A stretch of DNA of 64,000 bases, from assembly GCA_025146135.1 (NCBI GenBank), contig CP102255.1:2418001-2482000 (forward strand), written 5' to 3'. The first letter of the stretch is position 1; every line of letters begins with the position of its first letter. Source of the stretch: Anaerotruncus colihominis (GTDB lineage: Bacteria; Bacillota; Clostridia; Oscillospirales; Ruminococcaceae). Below are positions 43,990 through 55,055 of the stretch, piece after piece. A program made the position numbers and the translations under genes. The notes under the pieces are model-generated. The model was not told the origin of the DNA, did not search any database, and saw only the letters and a program-made list of their open reading frames with translations.

Positions 43990-44325
43990 TTATTCAGTTA
44001 TTGCTAAAATTAGTTTAATAATAATTTTTGTGGATTTTTCGTCAAGGGTAACTCCTTCCAGAATATGCATGATTTGATTCACAAAAGTCTCATTACAATT
44101 AGCATTAAATAAAGAATCGATGCTGATTCCCAATGACTTTGACACCGCTGGAAGGCTTCTCATCCAGCTACGTTCTTTTTTCCAATTTGCGATTGTGCTT
44201 TCAGAAACCCCCGCATTTTTCGCAATTTTAGCAATGCTTATATTACGTTCATCACAGATAGCCTTTATATTTTGATAAAGAACGGTCGTCTCCTCCGGCT
44301 GGTTGGCAGGGTGCTTATCAGCCAT
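43990..44325 (-). CDS. XRE regulator B (cassette 1)
   Basis: 111 residues from ATG 44325 with GGAGCG upstream. The first 26 residues (MADKHPANQPEETTVLYQNI and on) are identical to those of B' because they lie in the conserved flank. The HTH (IAKIAKNAGVSESTIANWKK) and C-terminus differ strongly from B'. DNA-binding is expected; target unknown. Confidence 0.78.
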   Translation of the reverse strand: MADKHPANQPEETTVLYQNIKAICDERNISIAKIAKNAGVSESTIANWKKERSWMRSLPAVSKSLGISIDSLFNANCNETFVNQIMHILEGVTLDEKSTKIIIKLILAITE

Positions 44326-44669
44326 CTTTATCACGCTCCAATTTGCGCAAACCAAAGACCTGCCTATATCCGCTGACCGTGCGAACCTTTCTGGAAAGAT
44401 CGCGTTTCCCATACGGCCGGCCACAGGCGTTCTTTGTTTTGTGATACGCAGGTATCGCCCCGCCCCGCTAAAGTGTGGCGATACCTGCTCCTATAATAAC
44501 ACAAGGCTGGGACGCCCGTCCAGGGTAACCATACCTTTTTCTATTATAAGCTTGTTATCGTCAATTTTCAAGGAAAGGCGGCTCCGATTTTTCCGGGGCT
44601 GTTTTTATATATTGCATTTAATCGACGGCATACGAAAAATCTCCCTTTTGCCGATTTCCATAAAACAAA
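44252..44669. repeat. 418-bp near-identical repeat, copy 1
   Basis: About 96 percent identical by eye to 46942-47358, with one single-base indel. It holds the start of gene B, its 200-nt leader with a perfect 12-bp hairpin (GCAGGTATCGCC with GGCGATACCTGC) and its promoter. Beyond the repeat, copy 1 lacks the plus-strand gene present after copy 2; 44670-44767 holds only a terminator. Confidence 0.9.
44543..44571 (-). promoter_or_regulatory. Promoter of XRE gene B
   Basis: On the minus strand TTGAAA (44571-44566), 17 bp, TATAAT (44548-44543). It gives B a leader of about 205 nt containing the 12-bp hairpin. Identical promoter in copy 2 at 47232-47260. Confidence 0.7.
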
Positions 44670-44699
44670 TAAGGGGGAGTTGTAATTTATAACATATAA

Positions 44700-44736
44700 A
44701 CAGCCGCCGTTCATAAAATATGAACGGCGGCTGTTG
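44700..44736. terminator. Terminator of the XRE C-D-E operon
   Basis: ACAGCCGCCGTTCAT and ATGAACGGCGGCTGT pair perfectly across a short A/T loop. Confidence 0.8.
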
Positions 44737-44767
44737 CCATTTCAGGTGTGCAGCAGTACCATGAACA

Positions 44768-45061
44768 TCAATCAAACATTAGAAGCTGATAAGGCGCGAT
44801 ATTTAAAGCAGCGGCAATACGATAGAGAGCTATAATAGACATGGGATAGGTAGAAGTGGATTCAATGTGACTTATCGTTGAATAGCTCAAATTGCTTTTT
44901 TCCGCAAGTTCTTCTTGACTCATTCCACATTTCTTACGAAAGAACTGAATGCGGAACCCAATATTTTTTAAAAAGCGAGCTTCATCGTTTGAATATCGAG
45001 AAGCTACATCCATATTGACACATCCATTCAAAACAGGATCAAAATGTATTATCATCATCAA
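44768..45061 (-). CDS. XRE regulator C
   Basis: 97 residues from ATG 45061, or 81 from ATG 45013. RIQFFRKKCGMSQEELAEKS and NLSYSTISHIE form the HTH; the end LNIAPYQLLMFD is typical. Its 5' end overlaps gene D by 23 bp, so it is the last gene of an E-D-C operon. AT-rich. Confidence 0.8.
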   Translation of the reverse strand: MMMIIHFDPVLNGCVNMDVASRYSNDEARFLKNIGFRIQFFRKKCGMSQEELAEKSNLSYSTISHIESTSTYPMSIIALYRIAAALNIAPYQLLMFD

Positions 45062-45251
45062 AATGTTCCATTATATCCTCTACTCGACAATGTAAAATAT
45101 TGCATAACTTATCAATTGTATTAACTTGAACATTTTCATTATGACGTAAGCGATTAAGTTGTGAACGGTTAATATTGTAAGTTGTATATAAAGCGTATTG
45201 AGAAATACCCTTTTCTTTCATTATTTTCCATAATTTATCATATTTTATCAT
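45039..45251 (-). CDS. XRE regulator D
   Basis: 70 residues from ATG 45251 with GGAG five bases upstream. LWKIMKEKGISQYALYTTYN and INRSQLNRLRHNENV are the HTH; DKLCNILHCRVEDIMEHF is the conserved end of a widespread clostridial family. It follows gene E by 2 bp. Confidence 0.85.
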   Translation of the reverse strand: MIKYDKLWKIMKEKGISQYALYTTYNINRSQLNRLRHNENVQVNTIDKLCNILHCRVEDIMEHFDDDNTF

Positions 45252-45253
45252 TT

Positions 45254-45619
45254 TTACTCCGAACGCCAATAGGTTACACGATTTAAATATTCTGAGTATT
45301 CGTCTAAAGCTACATAAATTGCAATATTCACTAACTTTCCAACAGGAAGATCGTATTCTTTGCTCAAGGACTCCAATCCATTAATCAAGCTTTCCTTAAA
45401 AGCAAAAGAACGTTTTGAATGATTGCTATTTTCAACACGATATATTGTAATCTTTTTGGTTTCAATTAAATGATATACTGCTGCCGACACCAGCTTATTT
45501 AGAGAAGCATCCAAAACATGGGTAGAAAGATAGACAAGCTGGTCATAAAATATATCAATAATTTCATACGACCGGTTATATTTTGGCTCAAGATGAAAGA
45601 ATCTGTCAAATGCTCTCAT
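45254..45619 (-). CDS. Unknown protein E with possible ribbon-helix-helix end
   Basis: 121 residues. The N-terminal 70 residues are helical. RSFAFKESLINGLESLSKEY and DLPVGKLVNIAIYVALDEY resemble a ribbon-helix-helix DNA-binding unit. First gene of the E-D-C operon. I do not recognise the family; plasmid or mobile-element accessory proteins are possible relatives. Confidence 0.55.
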   Translation of the reverse strand: MRAFDRFFHLEPKYNRSYEIIDIFYDQLVYLSTHVLDASLNKLVSAAVYHLIETKKITIYRVENSNHSKRSFAFKESLINGLESLSKEYDLPVGKLVNIAIYVALDEYSEYLNRVTYWRSE

Positions 45620-45721
45620 TATTGCTCACCCTTATTCATTGTATCCAATAAATACGCCGCGATTAACCATCTTTAATAAAACTTTTTAGCGTATAATATC
45701 ATTCTAAGAATAGTATTATAA

Positions 45722-45762
45722 CAAAAGAAAATCACATCATTGACGATGCGATTTTCTTTTGC
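45722..45762. terminator. Terminator after the frameshifted XRE gene
   Basis: CAAAAGAAAATC and GATTTTCTTTTG pair around a 16-nt middle; A/T-rich arms give T runs on both strands. Confidence 0.75.
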
Positions 45763-45776
45763 TATAATGAAAAAAG

Positions 45777-46102
45777 CTATTTGCTATCACTTTTCCCGTT
45801 CATCCGGTTTGCTACTTCTAATAAGACTAGGGCATCTTCTCTTGATAGCTCCCTTGCCCGTTTAGTTATCGCGGTTACTACATCAGGATCGTTTGAGTTG
45901 ACCTCAAAAAATTCAGAAGGTGAGATGCCTAAATATTCTATGATTTCTAGCAATCCCTCAACGGTAGGACGAGCCTTTCCAGATACTATTCCATTAATGT
46001 AACTTTTTGTGTGACCAAGCTCGTAACTCATTTGCGCTTCTGAAATCTCTCTCTTTTTAATCGCAATTCGGTTAGACGTCTTATTATAAAATTTAAATCC
46101 AT
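45777..46102 (-). pseudogene. XRE regulator F, frameshifted in a GA tract
   Basis: ATG 46102 opens MDLNFIIRRLTELRLKRE, the usual start of this XRE type, but the frame then breaks at a GAGAGAGA tract (plus-strand 46046-46054). The next frame continues with ISEAQMSYELGHTKSYINGI and VSGKARPTVEGLLEIIEYLG to 45777. Removing one GA unit restores one protein of about 108 residues. It is a broken gene or a phase-variable one; a shorter product from the ATG at 46031 would lack part of the HTH. Confidence 0.75.
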
Positions 46103-46199
46103 ATAAAATCCATTCACTTCACCAATATTATTTTAGCAGGAAATTACATATTTTGTCAAATTGTAGAAAGCCGCTGTTTGCAAATGCAAACAGCGGCTT

Positions 46200-46547
46200 T
46201 TACGGTTCGTCAGGATCTGTGTTGTTAGGTAAAAAAATTAAATTTTGGGATGCGAGAATTTTGTCTGCGGTAGCATTTGCCTGTTTATAAATTTCAGTCA
46301 CCTGCATTAAAGCATCCCTTAAATTTTCTGGATTTTTGTGAGATTGTGGATTATTGGTATTTCCCAAGAGGTAATCGACAGATACATCTAAAAAATTAGC
46401 GACACGCAATATTCTATCGCCTGAAGGCATAGAGGTTGCCCATTTACGTAATGACCCACGAGCCATTCCTGTACCCTTTTCTATTGCATATAAAGATATT
46501 TGATTGGATTTCGAAAACAACACTATTCTTTCATAAAGCTGATTCAT
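46200..46547 (-). CDS. XRE regulator A' (cassette 2)
   Basis: 115 residues. LYAIEKGTGMARGSLRKWAT, SMPSGDRILRVANFLDVSVD and YLLGNTNNPQSHK align with regulator A along the first 75 residues; C-termini differ. GAGGAGG precedes the ATG. Upstream an AT palindrome and a divergent promoter form a likely operator region. Confidence 0.82.
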   Translation of the reverse strand: MNQLYERIVLFSKSNQISLYAIEKGTGMARGSLRKWATSMPSGDRILRVANFLDVSVDYLLGNTNNPQSHKNPENLRDALMQVTEIYKQANATADKILASQNLIFLPNNTDPDEP

Positions 46548-46565
46548 ACGACCTCCTCAATTTGA

Positions 46566-46624
46566 CAAATATACTCTTTTTGGAGTATATTTGTCTTGAC
46601 TTGGAGTATTTTTACCGCTATAAT
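46566..46624 (+). promoter_or_regulatory. Operator palindrome and divergent promoter beside gene A'
   Basis: AAATATACTC and GAGTATATTT (46566-46591) form a perfect inverted repeat. A further half-site GGAGTATTTTT overlaps the promoter TTGACT (46596-46601), 17 bp, TATAAT (46619-46624), which reads rightward, antisense to B'. Confidence 0.75.
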
Positions 46625-46649
46625 ATGATTATAGACGTTAAATAGTACG

Positions 46650-47015
46650 CTAATCTTCGGGTTCAGTCATACTTAATGCGATTATTTTTGCTATCTTGAT
46701 AATAGCGGCTGTACTTTTTTCATTCAATCGAAGATCCTTGAGTGAATACATAATCTCTGATATATGGTTATCGCCTTCTGATATACTCTGGCGATCAAAT
46801 AGTTTATCTAAGGATATTTCCAGTGTATCTGCAACACGAATAAGCGCAATCATCCAAGAACGATTCGCCTTCCAATTAGCAATCGTTTTTGCAGGAATGC
46901 CGGAATCTCTTTCTAATTGAGAAATACTCTTTCTCTGCTCGTCACAGATAGCCTTTATATTTTGATAAAGAACGGTCGTCTCCTCCGGCTGGTTGGCAGG
47001 GTGCTTATCAGCCAT
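46650..47015 (-). CDS. XRE regulator B' (cassette 2)
   Basis: 121 residues from ATG 47015. Shares its first 26 residues with B, then ISQLERDSGIPAKTIANWKA (HTH) and a divergent C-terminus ending KIAKIIALSMTEPED. Transcribed from the promoter at 47260-47232 through a structured leader. Confidence 0.78.
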   Translation of the reverse strand: MADKHPANQPEETTVLYQNIKAICDEQRKSISQLERDSGIPAKTIANWKANRSWMIALIRVADTLEISLDKLFDRQSISEGDNHISEIMYSLKDLRLNEKSTAAIIKIAKIIALSMTEPED

Positions 47016-47358
47016 CTTTATCACGCTCCAATTGCGCAAACCAAAGACCTGCCTATATCCGCTGACCGTGCGAACCTTTCTGGAAAGATCGCGTTTCCCA
47101 TACGGCTGGCCACAGGCGCTCTTTGTTTTGTGATACGCAGGTATCGCCCCGCCCTGCTAAAGTGCGGCGATACCTGCTCCTATAATAACACAAGGCTGGG
47201 CCGCCCGTCCAGGGTAACCGTACCTTTTTCTATTATAAGCTTGTCATCGTCAATTTTCAAGTAAAGGCGGCTCCGATTTTTCCGGGGCTGTTTTTATATA
47301 TTGCATTTAATCGACGGCATATGAAAAATCTCCCTTTTGCCGATTTCCATAAAACAAA
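46942..47358. repeat. 417-bp near-identical repeat, copy 2
   Basis: Counterpart of 44252-44669. Also holds a plus-strand terminator-like stem (about 47267-47299, CGGCTCCG with CGGGGCTG and TTTTT) between the cassette and the downstream gene. Confidence 0.9.
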
Positions 47359-47372
47359 AAGGAGGATTCGCA

Positions 47373-47924
47373 ATGTCTCAAAAGCATATGGTCACAGAAG
47401 AATTTATAGAAGGCATGATGGGGGAGATTTCCACCGCCATGATACCCTACCAACAACTGTTCTCCTCCAGCTATCGGGAGTTTATGAGGTACTATCCTTC
47501 CTTTCTCCCAAAATTTGAGTCGCACAACAGCTATCCTGTCGTTGTTGACGCTTTTATCGATTATGACCAACTTATCAGCAACTATTATTTTGCACAAGGC
47601 TTTCTCGGCGCGGCTGGCGGCCTGCTTGGACAGGTCGTGAAGCCGGCCGGTTTGAAACAGATCCCCGGCCTGGCAGATTTGGAACAGGCGTTGGAACAGA
47701 CTTGCCGGTCGTATATCAACGAGTTTCCGCCAGAAGATCACGCGGAATTCAACAGCCAGTTTGCAAGAAAAAAACGCGCCATTGAGGATTCCTGGGAATA
47801 TTATTATCTGGCTGGGTATGAAATCATGTTTACATTGCTCAAACGCGCCGGTTATGAATTATCCGATAAACCATTGAAAAAATTATACAAAGCAATGTGG
47901 GCGCACAACAACATATTGCGCTGA
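47373..47924 (+). CDS. Unknown 183-residue protein
   Basis: From ATG 47373 with AAGGAGG upstream. Helical, soluble; contains AQGFLGAAGGLLGQVVKPAG in the middle. I recognise no domain. Its leader is the conserved cassette flank, so it may be the gene controlled by the XRE pair. The first cassette copy has lost or never had it. Confidence 0.6.
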   Translation: MSQKHMVTEEFIEGMMGEISTAMIPYQQLFSSSYREFMRYYPSFLPKFESHNSYPVVVDAFIDYDQLISNYYFAQGFLGAAGGLLGQVVKPAGLKQIPGLADLEQALEQTCRSYINEFPPEDHAEFNSQFARKKRAIEDSWEYYYLAGYEIMFTLLKRAGYELSDKPLKKLYKAMWAHNNILR

Positions 47925-48089
47925 TCTTGTTTGTGCGCCATCCCTAATATCAGGTTTCAGTGAAATCCCAGGCGGAAAATATTTTGGTAGGGTCACTTCC
48001 GATCTTTCGGCAGCCCGCCTGGCCGCGTTGATGTCACTTTCGCTTTAGCCAACTGATTTACCGCGTTCTGGCCGCCATACAGTTTTCTG

Positions 48090-48118
48090 TAGACAAAAGG
48101 TTGAAGGTATGATAAAAT
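48090..48118 (+). promoter_or_regulatory. Promoter of the RNHCP gene leader
   Basis: TAGACA (48090-48095), 17 bp, TAAAAT (48113-48118). Transcript would include about 180 nt of leader. Confidence 0.55.
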
Positions 48119-48195
48119 AATTATAAATATGTTTGGCTTCGAATCCAATCGGTTCGCCGGCCAGACTTGTTATTATATTTTTTAGGAGCGCGTAT

Positions 48196-48231
48196 ATGAA
48201 AAATAACTGTGCATCGGTGATTGTCTGCTAA
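48196..48231 (+). CDS. Leader peptide of 11 residues (MKNNCASVIVC)
   Basis: AGGAG (48184-48188) lies 7 nt before ATG 48196; TAA at 48229-48231. The last codons contain the first strand of an RNA stem (48219-48226), so translation of the peptide would change folding of the downstream leader. Confidence 0.6.
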   Translation: MKNNCASVIVC

Positions 48232-48297
48232 CCGGGAGGTTTGCGTAAGACAATCCAGGCTCAAACCTCCCAAAAGTACCATTTTGCTTTTTGGAGG
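48219..48297 (+). promoter_or_regulatory. Translational attenuator with three competing pairings
   Basis: GATTGTCT (48219-48226) pairs with AGACAATC (48248-48255). GGGAGGTTTG (48234-48243) pairs with CAAACCTCCC (48262-48271). CCTCCCAAAAG (48266-48276) pairs 10 of 11 with CTTTTTGGAGG (48287-48297), hiding the ribosome site of the RNHCP gene. The first two interleave. A ribosome on the leader peptide would break the first, favour the second and free the ribosome site. Same logic as erm-type attenuation; inferred. Confidence 0.65.
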
Positions 48298-48307
48298 ATG
48301 TTTCATA

Positions 48308-48733
48308 ATGAAACGAGAAAATAAGAAAAAATCATTTGAAAAAGGGTATTTTAAAACACATGCATGTCATGACAGCTTTGTGTGTAAGGTTTGCGGGAGA
48401 ACGGTCGTCCCAGCCGGGGCTGGCAGTTCACATCGGAACCATTGCCCCAATTGTTTATGCAGCCAGCATCTGGACGATGAACCAGGCGACCGGATGGCTG
48501 ATTGCGGCGGCGTCATGGAACCAATCGCCGTATGGGTCAGAAAGCATGGAGAATGGGCGGTGATTCATCGCTGCCGCATTTGCGGAAAATTAAGTTCAAA
48601 CCGTATTGCGGCGGATGATAATCCCATGAAGCTTATGTCGCTGGCCATGAAGCCTGTTGTGCTTCCGCCTTTCCCTTTGGAAAAGGTGGAGGAAATGACA
48701 AGGCTGATGGGCGGTGAAGGAGCATTGAAGTAA
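48308..48733 (+). CDS. RNHCP-domain protein
   Basis: 141 residues. FVCKVCGRTVVPAGAGSSHR and NHCPNCLCSQHLDD contain the R-N-H-C-P signature between zinc-binding cysteine pairs; CGGVMEPIAVWV and HRCRICGKLSSNRIAADDNP complete the domain. Biochemical role unknown. The regulated leader suggests a response to impaired translation. A terminator (48759-48787, AAGGCCGCCCGC stem) follows. Confidence 0.85.
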   Translation: MKRENKKKSFEKGYFKTHACHDSFVCKVCGRTVVPAGAGSSHRNHCPNCLCSQHLDDEPGDRMADCGGVMEPIAVWVRKHGEWAVIHRCRICGKLSSNRIAADDNPMKLMSLAMKPVVLPPFPLEKVEEMTRLMGGEGALK

Positions 48734-48758
48734 AACCGGACAGGTTAAATAAATTATA

Positions 48759-48787
48759 AAGGCCGCCCGCTAACGCGGGCGGCCTTC
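48759..48787 (+). terminator. Terminator of the RNHCP gene
   Basis: AAGGCCGCCCGC and GCGGGCGGCCTT pair around TAAC, followed by CTTCTT. Confidence 0.8.
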
Positions 48788-50344: not shown

Positions 50345-50625
50345 CATACAGTTATCATATAAGGAATCAAAACGCTGAGAACGGGAAAAGTAGCCCTTTG
50401 CAGCGCCATCACAGAGAGGTTTGCCGCCGGCTGAAAGCAAACCATGGCCGAAAGCGCGAAGTTCGCCCGCGAGCGGCGCGGCTGAAGCTGTGCGTTGTAG
50501 GCCGCGACGGGACGCCCCGTTACAGGCGCGAGAGTGTCCATGCGGGCTTGCCGTATGGGAATTTGGGTGGTACCACGGATTGGCGTTCTGCCGTTCGTCC
50601 CTTTGTGGACGAACGGCTTTTATTG
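50345..50625 (+). promoter_or_regulatory. T-box riboswitch, probable tRNA-Phe sensor
   Basis: TGGGTGGTACCACGG (50564-50577) is the T-box sequence, followed by a terminator (CCGTTCGTCC 50591-50600 with GGACGAACGG 50607-50616, then TTTTATT). A long Stem I region precedes, with GAAGTTCG where TTC at 50462-50464 is a plausible Phe specifier. Uncharged tRNA-Phe would stabilise the antiterminator and turn on the genes below. Confidence 0.88.
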
Positions 50626-50677: not shown

Positions 50678-51565
50678 ATGAATAATTGTATAATTAACGG
50701 AAAAATATACCATTTGGAGCATAACGTGCGGGACAATCCGTCTGTACGTGCGGCGTTTTTCGCGTTGGCACAAAAAATCTTTAACCTAAACTTTGCGCCA
50801 TGGTTTTCGGGCGGTTACTGGGGGGCGCGCTATCTCCCCTATACCTTGTTCGATGGAAAAAACGCTGTGTCCAATGTTTCCGTTAATCTGATGGATACCA
50901 TCTTTGAAGGGCGCGCCCGGCGTTATATTCAGATTGGTACCGTGATGACCGACCCCGCGTACCGAAAGCGCGGGTTGTGCCGGTTTTTGATGGAGTTGGT
51001 TCTACAACAGTGGCGCGGCCAATGCGATGCCATTTACCTGTTCGCAAACGACAACGCGCGCGGCTTTTACCCAAAATTCGGTTTTTCTGCCGCAGAAGAA
51101 TGGATGCATCGGCGTACAATCGTGCGGCGGGAAACACAGGTCCGCAGGCTTGATATGGACGACAGCGCCGATCTTGCGCTTTTCCTGCGGCTGTATGCCG
51201 AAGGCAACCCTTATTCCGCGTTCCCGATGCTGGATAACAGGGATTTGCTCATGTTTTACTGCGCGCAATCCCTGAAAAGGCAGGTCTTTTTCATCGAAGA
51301 CTGCGGGGCGGCGGCCGTCGCAGAGCCAATGGATGGCGAATTGCTGTGCTACGACGTATATGGCAAAACAAAACGGCCGCTCAATGATATCCTTTCGGCT
51401 CTCCTGCCGCCCGGGCTGCATACAGCGGCGCTCGGATTCACGCCGGCGGATGGTGAAACCGACGATATTCAGCCGTATCATGAGGATGATACAACGCTCT
51501 TTATCCTTGGGGAAAGCCTGCCGGCAAAGCACCGGCTGATATTCCCGCTGCTGTCGCACACCTGA
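50678..51565 (+). CDS. GNAT-family acetyltransferase in the pheST operon
   Basis: 295 residues. IGTVMTDPAYRKRGLCRFLM is the acetyl-CoA loop (RxxGL), then ANDNARGFYPKFGFSAAEEW. The C-terminal half (from about 150) is a second, degenerate domain. It lies between the T-box and pheS, so charging of tRNA-Phe should control it. Substrate unknown. Confidence 0.8.
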   Translation: MNNCIINGKIYHLEHNVRDNPSVRAAFFALAQKIFNLNFAPWFSGGYWGARYLPYTLFDGKNAVSNVSVNLMDTIFEGRARRYIQIGTVMTDPAYRKRGLCRFLMELVLQQWRGQCDAIYLFANDNARGFYPKFGFSAAEEWMHRRTIVRRETQVRRLDMDDSADLALFLRLYAEGNPYSAFPMLDNRDLLMFYCAQSLKRQVFFIEDCGAAAVAEPMDGELLCYDVYGKTKRPLNDILSALLPPGLHTAALGFTPADGETDDIQPYHEDDTTLFILGESLPAKHRLIFPLLSHT

Positions 51566-51633
51566 AAACCGGCGAACATCTGTAAAGATAAAACTGTTTA
51601 CACATTCCATTTTAACGGAAGGATGAACTAGAA

Positions 51634-52653
51634 ATGATCAACGCGCTGCAAACCATTCAGAAGCAGGCAGCCGAGGCGCTGGACTCAGCGGCCGATCTGC
51701 GGGCCATCGACGACCTGCGTGTGCGCTACCTCGGCAAAAAGGGCGAACTGACCGCTATCCTCAAACAGATGGGCAAACTCTCCGCTGAGGAACGCCCCAA
51801 GGTCGGACAGCTCGCCAACGAGGTGCGCGCCGCCATTGAACGGTTAATCGACGAACGCTCCGCCGCCGTGCGCGCCGCCCAGCTGGAACAACGCCTGATT
51901 GACGAAAAGCTCGATGTGACGCTGCCGGGGCGCGCCGCGCCGCTTGGCAAGGCGCATCCCTTGACAAAGGTACTCGACGAGGTCAAGGAAATCTTTCTCG
52001 GTATGGGCTTTTCGATTGCGGAAGGCCCGGAGGTCGAAACGGATTACTACAACTTTGAGGCGCTCAACATCCCCAAAAACCATCCGGCGCGCGACACGCA
52101 GGACACGTTTTACATCTCCGATAACGTCATTCTGCGCACACAGACGTCGCCTGTCCAGGTGCGCACGATGGAAAAGCAAAAGCCGCCCATCCGTGTCATT
52201 GCGCCGGGACGCGTCTACCGCTCCGATGCGGTCGATGCGACGCACTCGCCGCTGTTTCACCAGGTGGAAGGGCTTGTCGTCGACCGGGGGGTCACGATGG
52301 CCGACCTGAAGGGGACGTTGGAGCTGTTCGTCAAGCGCCTTTACGGCGATGAATCCGTCGTGCGTTTCCGCCCGCACCACTTCCCGTTCACCGAGCCGTC
52401 CGCCGAATTGGACGTGCAGTGCTTCGCCTGCCACGGAGAAGGCTGCCGGCTATGCAAGGGCGAGGGCTGGATCGAACTGCTCGGCTGCGGCATGGTGCAC
52501 CCCAAGGTGCTCTCCATCTGCGGCATTGATCCCGAGGAATACAGCGGCTTCGCGTTCGGCATGGGCCTTGAGCGTATCGTCATGCGCCGCTACGGCATCG
52601 ACGATCTGCGCCTGTTCTATGAAAACGATCTGCGTTTCCTAAACCAGTTCTGA
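51634..52653 (+). CDS. pheS: Phenylalanyl-tRNA synthetase alpha subunit
   Basis: 339 residues. N-terminal coiled coil, then class II motif 1-3 region: [51 protein letters not shown] and [18 protein letters not shown]. Makes the alpha2beta2 enzyme with pheT 20 bp downstream. Confidence 0.97.
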
Positions 52654-52673
52654 TTGCAAGGAGGCTGCATGCT

Positions 52674-55055
52674 ATGAATTTATCAATGAAATGGCTCGCC
52701 GACTATGTGGATGTCGGCGGGATTACCGCCCACGAATTCGCCGAAGCGATGACCATGTCCGGTTCCAAGGTGGAAGGGTATGAGACGGAGGGCGCAAAGA
52801 TCAAAAACGTCGTCGTCGGCAAGGTAACACAAATCGTCCGCCACCCGGATTCCGACCATATGTTTATCTGCCAAGTCGATGTTGGCACGGGCGCGCCCAT
52901 CCAGATTGTCACCGGCGCTCAGAATGTGCGCGCCGGCGATTATGTCCCTGTCGCCATGCATGATTCCTGGCTGCCGGACGGCACACATATCAAAAAAGGC
53001 AAGCTGCGCGGCGTTGAATCGAACGGTATGCTCTGCTCGCTGGCCGAACTTGGTTTGACAACGCACGACTTCCCGTATGCGATCGAGGACGGCATCTTTA
53101 TTTTACAAGAGCCTGATTTGACGCCCGGGCAGGATATCCAGTCGGCAATCGGGTTAAACGACACGTGCGTTGAGTTTGAAATCACCTCGAACCGGCCGGA
53201 TTGTCTGTCTGTTACGGGGCTGGCGCGCGAAGCGGCCGTCACGTTCGATAAGCCGCTCAACATCAAAGCGCCCGTCGTCAAAGGCGCGGCCGGCGATATC
53301 CACAGCTATCTTTCCGTCGAGGTCACAGCCCCCGCGCTGTGCCCGCGCTACACGGCGCGCATGGTCAAAAATATCAAAATCGAACCGTCGCCTCGCTGGA
53401 TGCGCGAGCGCCTGCGCGCCAGCGGCGTGCGTCCGATCAACAATATCGTCGATATCACAAACTATGTTATGCTGGAATACGGCCAGCCGATGCACGCGTT
53501 CGATTATAAGTATGTGGAAGGCGGCAAAATCGTTGTGCGCAACGCCAAGCCGGGTGAAACCATCATGACGCTCGACGGCGTCACGCGTACGCTGTCCCCT
53601 GAAATGCTCGTCATCGCCGACGTGTCCAAGCCCTCTGCGGTCGCGGGCGTCATGGGTGGCGAATACAGCGGCATCATGGACGATACAAATATGATCGTGT
53701 TCGAATCGGCCTGTTTCGACGGTCCGTCCGTGCGCACGACCGCCAAAAAGCTTGGTATGCGCACGGAGGCGTCCGGCCGCTTTGAAAAGCAGCTCGACCC
53801 CGCCACCACCATTCCGGCTGTCCAGCGCGCCTGCGAGCTTGTTGAGCTGCTTGGCGCGGGCGAGGTGATCGGCGGCATGATCGATGCCGACAACGCCTGT
53901 CATGAGCCGCGCCGTATCAAGCTTGAACCGGAGTGGAGCAACCAGTTCCTGGGGATCGAGGTCCCTGTCGGGGAGATGCGCCGCATCCTCACGCGCCTGG
54001 AATGCAAAATCGACGGCGACGATATCCTGCCGCCCTCCTTCCGCAGCGACCTGGAGCACAAGGCCGACATCGCCGAGGAAATCGCCCGCTTTTACGGCTA
54101 TGACAAAATCCCGGTGACAGCCATCCGCGGCACAGCCGACGGCGGTTACACGGCCAAACAGAAATTTGAGCGCCTGATCAATCAGACGCTGCTCGCCCAA
54201 GGGCTTTACGAGGTCGCGACCTATTCCTTCATCAGCCCCAAATATTACGATAAAATCAACCTGCCGGCCAACAGCCCGCTGCGCGCCTGCGTCACCATCC
54301 AAAACCCGCTCGGCGAGGACACGAGCGTCATGCGCACCACAACCGTCCCGTCGATGCTCGAGGTGCTCGCGCGCAATTACAACAACCGCAACAAGGCCGC
54401 CGCGCTCTATGAGATCGGCACCGTCTATCTGCCGCAGGAGGGCCGAGAGCTGCCTGACGAGCGCCCGGTGATTACACTCGGACTTTATGGCGACGCATAC
54501 GATTTCTTTGCGCTCAAAGGTATTGTTGAAACACTGCTGCGCGCGGCGGGTGTGGACGGCTGCGAATATGAATCCAGCGCGGAGGACGCCGCGTTCCATC
54601 CCGGCCGCTGCGCGCGGGTTCTGATCGGCGGCAAATGCGCCGGTATGATCGGCGAGGTCCATCCGGCTGTCTGTGAAAATTATCAGATTGGCACACGCGC
54701 CTACATTGCTTATCTGGACGAAACCGTCCTGTTTGAAAATGTCGCGCCCGAGCGCGGTTACAGCCCGCTGCCGCGTTTTCCTGCTGCGACGCGCGATTTG
54801 GCGTTAATCTGCGACGACGCGCTGCCGGTCGCTGCGCTTGAGAAGGCGATCCGTTCTGCCGTCGGCAGCACGCTTGAGGAATTGACGCTGTTTGATGTCT
54901 ACCGTGGCGCGCAGGTCGCCGATGGCAAAAAGAGCGTCGCTTATTCGCTGACGATGCGCGCGGCCGACCGCACACTCACCGACGAGGAGTCCGATGCCGC
55001 TGTAAAGCGCGCGCTCAAGGCGCTCAGAACCATCGGTGCAGAGCTGCGCAGTTAA
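52674..55055 (+). CDS. pheT: Phenylalanyl-tRNA synthetase beta subunit
   Basis: 793 residues, full length. Domain order: EMAP-like tRNA-binding fold (about 40-150), B3/B4 editing domain (about 210-400), B5, catalytic-like core and C-terminal anticodon-binding domain (about 700-793, PRFPAATRDLALICDDALPV). GGAGG precedes ATG 52674. Confidence 0.97.
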   Translation: MNLSMKWLADYVDVGGITAHEFAEAMTMSGSKVEGYETEGAKIKNVVVGKVTQIVRHPDSDHMFICQVDVGTGAPIQIVTGAQNVRAGDYVPVAMHDSWLPDGTHIKKGKLRGVESNGMLCSLAELGLTTHDFPYAIEDGIFILQEPDLTPGQDIQSAIGLNDTCVEFEITSNRPDCLSVTGLAREAAVTFDKPLNIKAPVVKGAAGDIHSYLSVEVTAPALCPRYTARMVKNIKIEPSPRWMRERLRASGVRPINNIVDITNYVMLEYGQPMHAFDYKYVEGGKIVVRNAKPGETIMTLDGVTRTLSPEMLVIADVSKPSAVAGVMGGEYSGIMDDTNMIVFESACFDGPSVRTTAKKLGMRTEASGRFEKQLDPATTIPAVQRACELVELLGAGEVIGGMIDADNACHEPRRIKLEPEWSNQFLGIEVPVGEMRRILTRLECKIDGDDILPPSFRSDLEHKADIAEEIARFYGYDKIPVTAIRGTADGGYTAKQKFERLINQTLLAQGLYEVATYSFISPKYYDKINLPANSPLRACVTIQNPLGEDTSVMRTTTVPSMLEVLARNYNNRNKAAALYEIGTVYLPQEGRELPDERPVITLGLYGDAYDFFALKGIVETLLRAAGVDGCEYESSAEDAAFHPGRCARVLIGGKCAGMIGEVHPAVCENYQIGTRAYIAYLDETVLFENVAPERGYSPLPRFPAATRDLALICDDALPVAALEKAIRSAVGSTLEELTLFDVYRGAQVADGKKSVAYSLTMRAADRTLTDEESDAAVKRALKALRTIGAELRS

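Follow-up and report, generated by a model that had tools for sequence, protein, structure and literature searches.

The closest described relatives of the element studied here are the erm and cat attenuators (ErmBL, ErmCL). Like them, it has a short leader ORF equipped with a ribosome site of its own, hairpins that can form in alternative ways, and a downstream ribosome site kept concealed until ribosome stalling in the leader, here a modelled event, exposes it. ErmBL is reported to stall while Asp10 occupies the P site (PMC8274638). In the Actinobacteria, the uORF attenuator of WhiB7/WblC is described as sensing ribosome inhibition, with a regulon that includes GNATs and an RsgA paralog (PMC10727445, PMC7157823); the WblC-activated genes given for Streptomyces coelicolor under tetracycline include an RsgA paralog and 16 GNATs (PMC7157823). 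Leader-peptide attenuation has also been reported for inducible ABC-F genes such as vmlR and msrD, that is, for chromosomal and acquired ribosome-protection genes (PMC9226507, PMC10314930). Here we describe, upstream of an RNHCP-domain gene, an element that we read as a whole, with a probability of roughly 0.8, as a leader-peptide translational attenuator of a small ribosome-stress module, with erm-like logic. Such attenuators are a known kind, but this one looks new in its fold, its family of leaders and its set of targets. A literature search by the name RNHCP found nothing biological, and searches on the attenuator element found nothing among the papers listed.

The window, by which we mean the whole 64 kb stretch of DNA analysed, carries on its + strand, as are all features below unless stated otherwise, a gene for a 141-aa RNHCP-domain protein (48308..48733; PF12647, 130.8 bits, 1.9e-38), well past the gathering cut-off of 24 bits. 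Covariance model R1, which was built solely from RNHCP leaders and counts the window leader among its 76 rows, has a single match at E<0.01 within the 64 kb, the entire attenuator (48180..48307, 93.2 bits). It includes the ribosome site of the leader, AGGAG in the sequence (48184..48188), and the 11-codon leader ORF MKNNCASVIVC (48196..48231; ATG at 48196, stop TAA at 48229-48231). Strand 1 (GATTGTCT, 48219..48226) pairs at 8/8 positions with strand 3 (AGACAATC, 48248..48255), and both covary. Strand 2 (GGGAGGTTTG, 48234..48243), whose GGGAGG is near-invariant in the aligned leaders, pairs 10/10 with the first segment (CAAACCTCCC, 48262-48271) of strand 4, the anti-Shine-Dalgarno strand (48262..48276). 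Strand 4 can pair instead with strand 5 (48287..48297), which includes the RNHCP ribosome site GGAGG (48293-48297); this pairing uses the segment 48266-48276 and is 10/11, with one C.T mismatch. An apical hairpin with a GNRA loop, AACC-GGGA-GGTT (48230..48241), spans the end of the stop codon and strand 2. Further out, a consensus scan gave a sigma-70-like promoter at 48090..48118 (TAGACA-17-TAAAAT with TG before the second hexamer, 10/12), although promoter-like sites in the region are only weakly enriched (4 vs 1.4 +/- 1.3 in shuffles). The same kind of scan gave a GC-rich, terminator-like inverted repeat without assigned strand 3' of the RNHCP gene (48758..48787), such repeats numbering 2 vs 1.4 +/- 1.1 expected by chance.

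The initial annotation of this locus had described an 11-codon leader ORF with its own ribosome site overlapping strand 1, together with the pairings 1:3 (8 bp), 2:4 (10 bp) and 4:5 (10 of 11), all of which are exact in the sequence. It had also held that 4:5 hides the RNHCP ribosome site, and strand 5 does contain the GGAGG. The minimum-energy fold of 48176-48330 agrees, combining 1:3 with 4:5 and leaving the RNHCP site hidden; the region folds better than its shuffles with a z of -3.21, 2/200 shuffles being equally good. In that fold strand 2 sits in its own hairpin, AACC-GGGA-GGTT, which caps stem 1:3, a GNRA hairpin additionally holding strand 2 that the annotation had lacked. The proposed erm/cat logic stands as far as the leader ORF and the alternative pairings are concerned, but the arrangement is not a simple erm ladder, since 1:3 and 2:4 cross.

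Rfam searched over the whole window returned a T-box, tmRNA and SRP RNA elsewhere and no match at the attenuator, and a permissive search of 48050-48450 returned two chance-level matches only. Several further features lie in the surroundings. Upstream of the leader (48128-48170) there is by eye a possible hairpin whose arms differ in a compensatory way from those of locus L008. A 195-aa ORF just upstream (47337-47924, + strand) matches nothing in Pfam or NCBIfam at E<=0.001. On the minus strand (43990-47039) lies a run of small ORFs, several of them with helix-turn-helix matches; two of the ORFs have NWSVIKMADKHPANQPEETTVLYQNIKAICDE in common. Downstream, a T-box leader (50368-50605, 112 bits) precedes a GNAT gene, which is followed by two long ORFs (50678-55055) that look pheS/pheT-like by eye.

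PF12647 is present in 14/61 relatives and in 77/396 genomes of the family, and a profile scan of named genomes confirmed at least 562 relatives, of which the best 80 were kept. We analysed 146 distinct RNHCP upstream regions, leaving out 7 loci whose gene was missed by the pattern. The window-type attenuator is found in 89/146 (80 by motif, 9 by eye), a figure that, the loci having been picked by similarity, gives no estimate for RNHCP genes overall. A second kind of attenuator accounts for 7/146 regions, and RsgA-RNHCP fusions with a different leader and a terminator-like hairpin for 4/146; the remaining 46/146 show no recognised leader of type A, type B or the fusion type, and among them at least two (L049, L051) carry still other short leaders. 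R1 matches 52/80 named loci (the best 80 of at least 562) at E<1e-4, many of these being its own training rows. The RNHCP leaders with the element come from many Clostridia and from a few MAGs labelled Synergistaceae or Synergistales. The annotation had named a lack of conservation in relatives as one refuting outcome and had called for a look at leader peptides of other RNHCP genes, and on both points it has held: the leader ORF, strand 2, 1:3, 2:4 and 4:5 recur and covary, and leader peptides were found at RNHCP genes in many Clostridia.

The other upstream regions offered observations of their own. The second leader type (L023, L025, L026, L027, L052, L064, L103) mostly reads MSAIR*, MSAVRK*, MPAIRK* or similar, and is followed, by eye and pattern, by a GGACA-like stretch, a terminator-like hairpin, TTGTCC and then the RNHCP ribosome site; this is apparently an unrelated attenuator built on the same logic. 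By eye, the fusion genes (L004, L006, L040, L056) have other short leaders (MSAIYEVAFH*, MSVVFEVAFL*) and terminator-like hairpins upstream. Among the RNHCP genes without an attenuator, eight (L005, L036, L121, L127, L132, L146, L152, L155) lie, again by eye, behind a gene for a MarR-type-like regulator, and ten (L044-L047, L101, L104, L108, L112, L115, L118) have the palindrome-like GAACAnnTATATCTGTTC and variants upstream. In an unverified 'Bacteriophage sp.' contig from human faeces (L256, 1377-1503), the attenuator (49.4 bits) stands directly 5' of an RNHCP gene.

The pairings were examined in an alignment of RNHCP leaders from which rows more than 90% alike had been removed (80 -> 76). 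For 1:3, the pairing energy of each leader with its own partner strand averaged -13.05 kcal/mol against -9.09 +/- 0.30 in permutations, none of 10000 being as good (z -13.0), and control region pairs from the same sequences gave -0.4 to -2.2 (leader N-part with strand 3, -1.4; strand 1 with loop, -2.2; N-part with loop, -0.5; strand 3 with loop, -0.4). The apical hairpin is paired in 96.7% of cells, with both-side changes at 2/4 pairs, and 4:5 in 92.7%, with both-side changes at 4/10 pairs. Taken jointly these two are 93.9% paired, and doubly changed cells number 42 vs 20.3 +/- 3.3 in shuffles, although the pairs with a both-side change are not above shuffles (6 vs 5.1). For 2:4, 86.3% of cells are paired and 20 are doubly changed vs 9.4 +/- 2.6. 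Slid registers are paired at 42-68% for the apical hairpin and 4:5 and at 26-60% for 2:4, one slid 2:4 register exceeding the true one in doubly changed cells (25 vs 20). We also examined leaders of GNAT and RsgA genes, dropping 7 target-family matches without a recognisable strand 2 and removing near-duplicates (GNAT rows 37 -> 22, RsgA rows 10 -> 9). In the 22 GNAT leaders, which had no part in R1, the 1:3 energy was -12.85 vs -9.79 +/- 0.54 (0/10000); the RsgA leaders alone (n=9) gave a weaker 1:3 signal (58/10000). Two RsgA attenuators (L213, L236) lack strands 2 and 3 and are perhaps fixed in one state. The pairings themselves are thus shown by covariation, and their meaning for the ground state is what we infer from it. 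The covariation of 1:3, 2:4 and 4:5 argues that both mutually exclusive states are under selection, which, at the level of sequence comparison, is the mark of a switch.

Although R1 knows only RNHCP leaders, its matches at E<=0.001, found in 43/295 genomes of the order, 33/391 of the class and 14/299 of the phylum, lie mostly before genes of other families. We classified 89 of the 90 distinct matches (76 + 13; G887 was left out): 44 (40+4) precede a gene of one GNAT family, 21 (14+7) an RsgA-like GTPase and 18 (17+1) an RNHCP gene, that is, 83/89 with a target in one of the three families. The other 6/89 comprise two at a contig edge, three that are chance-like and one before a short ORF of unknown kind that is truncated where the contig ends. 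Two genomes (G757, G723) carry switch-bearing RNHCP and RsgA genes together and a third (G824) GNAT and RsgA, and the element precedes plasmid GNAT genes in Selenomonas ruminantium TAM6421 (66.1 bits) and Pusillibacter faecalis (87.7 bits). An additional strong RsgA match was found in 11/11 genomes examined with a switch-bearing RsgA, and the switched gene is therefore a paralog; for the window genome there is one strong RsgA match. None of the 83 classified targets is an ABC-F protein, an rRNA methylase or a chloramphenicol acetyltransferase, and none of the three target families counts among the known resistance genes. That one switch precedes three families, in many gut bacteria, suggests a common response of all three to ribosome trouble.

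By script, a leader ORF, with a start codon, a purine-rich site upstream and a frame open to strand 2, was found in 121/127 leaders (80 RNHCP, 47 GNAT or RsgA), 116 of them distinct. They run for about 10-12 codons to strand 2, frequently start with UUG, and are diverse except at their end. At the predicted P-site codon, the 116 have E in 67, V in 14, D in 12 and A in 9; the next codon is I in 76, L in 12 and S in 12, and the one after that V in 80 and A in 29. The peptide MKNNCASVIVC recurs unchanged in L008, with kindred leaders in further relatives, and GNAT leaders read MKKNNTLEIVA and similar. To our knowledge, the end motif matches no erm or cat arrest motif. In 92/116 distinct leaders a stop precedes strand 2, and in 24/116 the frame continues through it (..IVA-NREVC..), most of these keeping the x-(I/L)-(V/A) codons; because leaders without a stop there mostly keep their end codons, termination before strand 2 is not what is sensed, and the constant part of the leader is its end codons and not its stop. 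One GNAT leader without a stop (L185) is in frame with its GNAT gene, giving a single 245-aa frame. Among 30 close pairs, 41 synonymous vs 92 non-synonymous codon changes were counted, a synonymous share of 0.31 vs 0.23 expected, and outside its last codons the leader is weakly constrained. The end codons show a synonym bias (GAG 63 vs GAA 4; ATT 67 vs ATA 9); because they are conserved as nucleotides too, constraints on peptide and on RNA are not separable there, and both seem to be at work.

These same data bear on a reading in which a structured RNA is bound by a protein, as in feedback by RNHCP or RsgA, or by a metabolite, the leader ORF being incidental. It would fit the nucleotide conservation of GGAGATTG and ACCGGGAGGTTTG and the weak coding signal outside the last codons, but it leaves unexplained why the start codon, the purine-rich site and the open frame come together in 121/127 leaders and why in 24/116 the reading frame passes uninterrupted through strand 2; the Rfam riboswitches give no match either, and we regard this reading as improbable.

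For the leader-peptide attenuator, we modelled what a stalled ribosome would do by folding each leader from the leading edge of the model ribosome onward, with an assumed P-site offset of 16 nt. In the RNHCP leaders (n=76), the RNHCP ribosome site is 8% open without a ribosome, 44-47% open with the first free base 3 to 0 bases before strand 2, and falls to 29% at one base into strand 2 and 7% at three. By P-site codon (n=70), openness is 0.46 at the E/V codon; it is nearly as high upstream, at 0.37 and 0.43 for the positions two codons and one codon earlier, and drops to 0.18 one codon later and 0.02 two later. In the model, E/V is therefore the last codon where stalling would open the gene, and the most highly conserved part of the leader peptide starts with it. 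In the window the predicted P-site codon, placed by this model and its assumed offset, would be codon 8 (Val, 48217..48219). The best edge gains more than 0.3 in openness in only 59% of RNHCP leaders, and the window leader goes from 0.00 to at most 0.41. Without a ribosome, the GNAT and RsgA sites are 39% and 34% open, with maxima of 72% and 60%, and in this crude footprint model their switch looks leakier.

On these grounds the following mechanism can be proposed. In the ground state, stem 1:3 with its ACC-GGGA-GGT hairpin cap would occupy strand 2, strand 4 would pair with strand 5, and the RNHCP ribosome site would be hidden. A ribosome, probably stalling late in the leader as the conserved (E/V)-I-(V/A) codons occupy its P and A sites, would cover strand 1 and the ACC arm and set strand 2 free; strand 2 would then take strand 4, and RNHCP would be translated. 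As the ribosome moves on, the ground state would re-form. The inducing signal would most likely be a translation inhibitor, namely a ribosome inhibitor met in the habitat, and the switch common to RNHCP, a second RsgA-like GTPase and one GNAT family may constitute a cis-regulated ribosome-stress module.

The place of the modelled stall also weighs on the idea of an internal Shine-Dalgarno-like pause, in which the GGAG of the leader would slow every ribosome and the switch would report general translation speed. The codon before GAG does mostly end in G, as a nucleotide signal predicts, but such a pause is expected codons downstream, over strand 2, where the model closes the site (0.02), and leaders without GGAG exist, the window having GGTG, so that we give this idea little credence. 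Amino acid starvation sensed as in trp or his leaders, with an uncharged tRNA stalling the ribosome, would in the model lead to the same RNA outcome from a stall at the same place; yet the leaders contain no codon run for a single amino acid, their peptides vary widely before the last four residues and their targets are not biosynthetic genes, which makes starvation very unlikely. Chance inverted repeats without function, for which one could cite that short repeats are common and that the folding z of -3.21 is by itself modest, are refuted by the comparative data, both the covariation and the R1 matches before three families.

Several genomic associations link RNHCP to the ribosome. At four loci (L004, L006, L040, L056), RsgA carries RNHCP as a C-terminal fusion, with PF03193 and PF12647 within one 466-aa frame in L006; three further candidates for such fusions (L025, L103, L162) were rejected as merely open frames. 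RNHCP adjoins RsgA in L135 and L210 and GNAT in L170, RsgA adjoins GNAT in L198 and L237, and on a Vibrio coralliilyticus plasmid the RNHCP and rsgA genes overlap. On a Streptomyces plasmid (L258, 2009-3479), two tandem RNHCP genes are followed by a gene for FBP_C (PF16571), which we take to be the zinc-finger portion of proteins of the FusB type; on the opposite strand lies a short gene with an aminoglycoside phosphotransferase annotation. In L057, an AAC(3)-like ORF 19 nt 3' of RNHCP (PF02522, 65.6 bits, partial) was set aside as a single case. RNHCP occurs in 4 plasmid and 6 phage records, and is thus not a common mobile gene in such records. RsgA is described as a late 30S assembly GTPase that is also able to split 70S ribosomes (PMC6912228).

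The protein itself gave fewer leads. NCBIfam holds no name for RNHCP, and a PDB search with its profile gave weak zinc-finger matches (best E 0.016), the GNAT profile retrieving generic acetyltransferases. The structure model of RNHCP (pLDDT 68.4, pTM 0.59) had no Foldseek match in the PDB at E<=0.001, and we therefore claim no fold. The initial annotation had suggested that RNHCP proteins respond to stalled ribosomes, and this gains evidence from the element also preceding RsgA-like GTPases and from RNHCP being fused or adjacent to RsgA. Judging from fusion, neighbourhood and shared switch, RNHCP most likely acts on the ribosome, above all on the small subunit, alone or with RsgA.

Taken together, these observations lead us to a broader proposal, which we offer tentatively and at slightly less than even odds: that the Clostridia and their relatives have a cis-only ribosome-stress regulon, in which the same arrest-leader attenuator stands before three genes, those for RNHCP, a second RsgA and a GNAT. 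Their products would jointly repair, remodel or shield ribosomes, and chiefly the small subunit, under a block of elongation. In this view the leader would naturally sense the state of the ribosome, and RNHCP would be a factor for ribosome protection or maturation. This would provide a first testable function for RNHCP proteins, connecting them with both RsgA and stalled ribosomes. It also points to an inducible response in gut Clostridia that protects ribosomes with genes absent from the usual lists of resistance genes. Should the signal be a ribosome inhibitor, the attenuator could serve as a ready biosensor for that inhibitor.

In spite of the shared principle, the element differs from the described systems in several respects: (i) The targets here are RNHCP, RsgA-like and GNAT genes and not rRNA methylases. 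(ii) In contrast to erm, the strands pair as 1:3, 2:4 and 4:5, of which 1:3 and 2:4 cross (1<2<3<4), and a GNRA cap sits on strand 2. (iii) The leaders, of about 10-12 codons to strand 2, end in (E/V)IVx, unlike those of erm; as in ErmBL, however, an acidic residue recurs at the critical place, with E or D at the predicted P site in 79/116 distinct leaders. (iv) Leader-peptide attenuation is shared with vmlR and msrD, but vmlR also uses transcription attenuation. (v) In WhiB7/WblC the attenuator controls one transcription factor, whereas here each effector gene or operon has its own translational attenuator.
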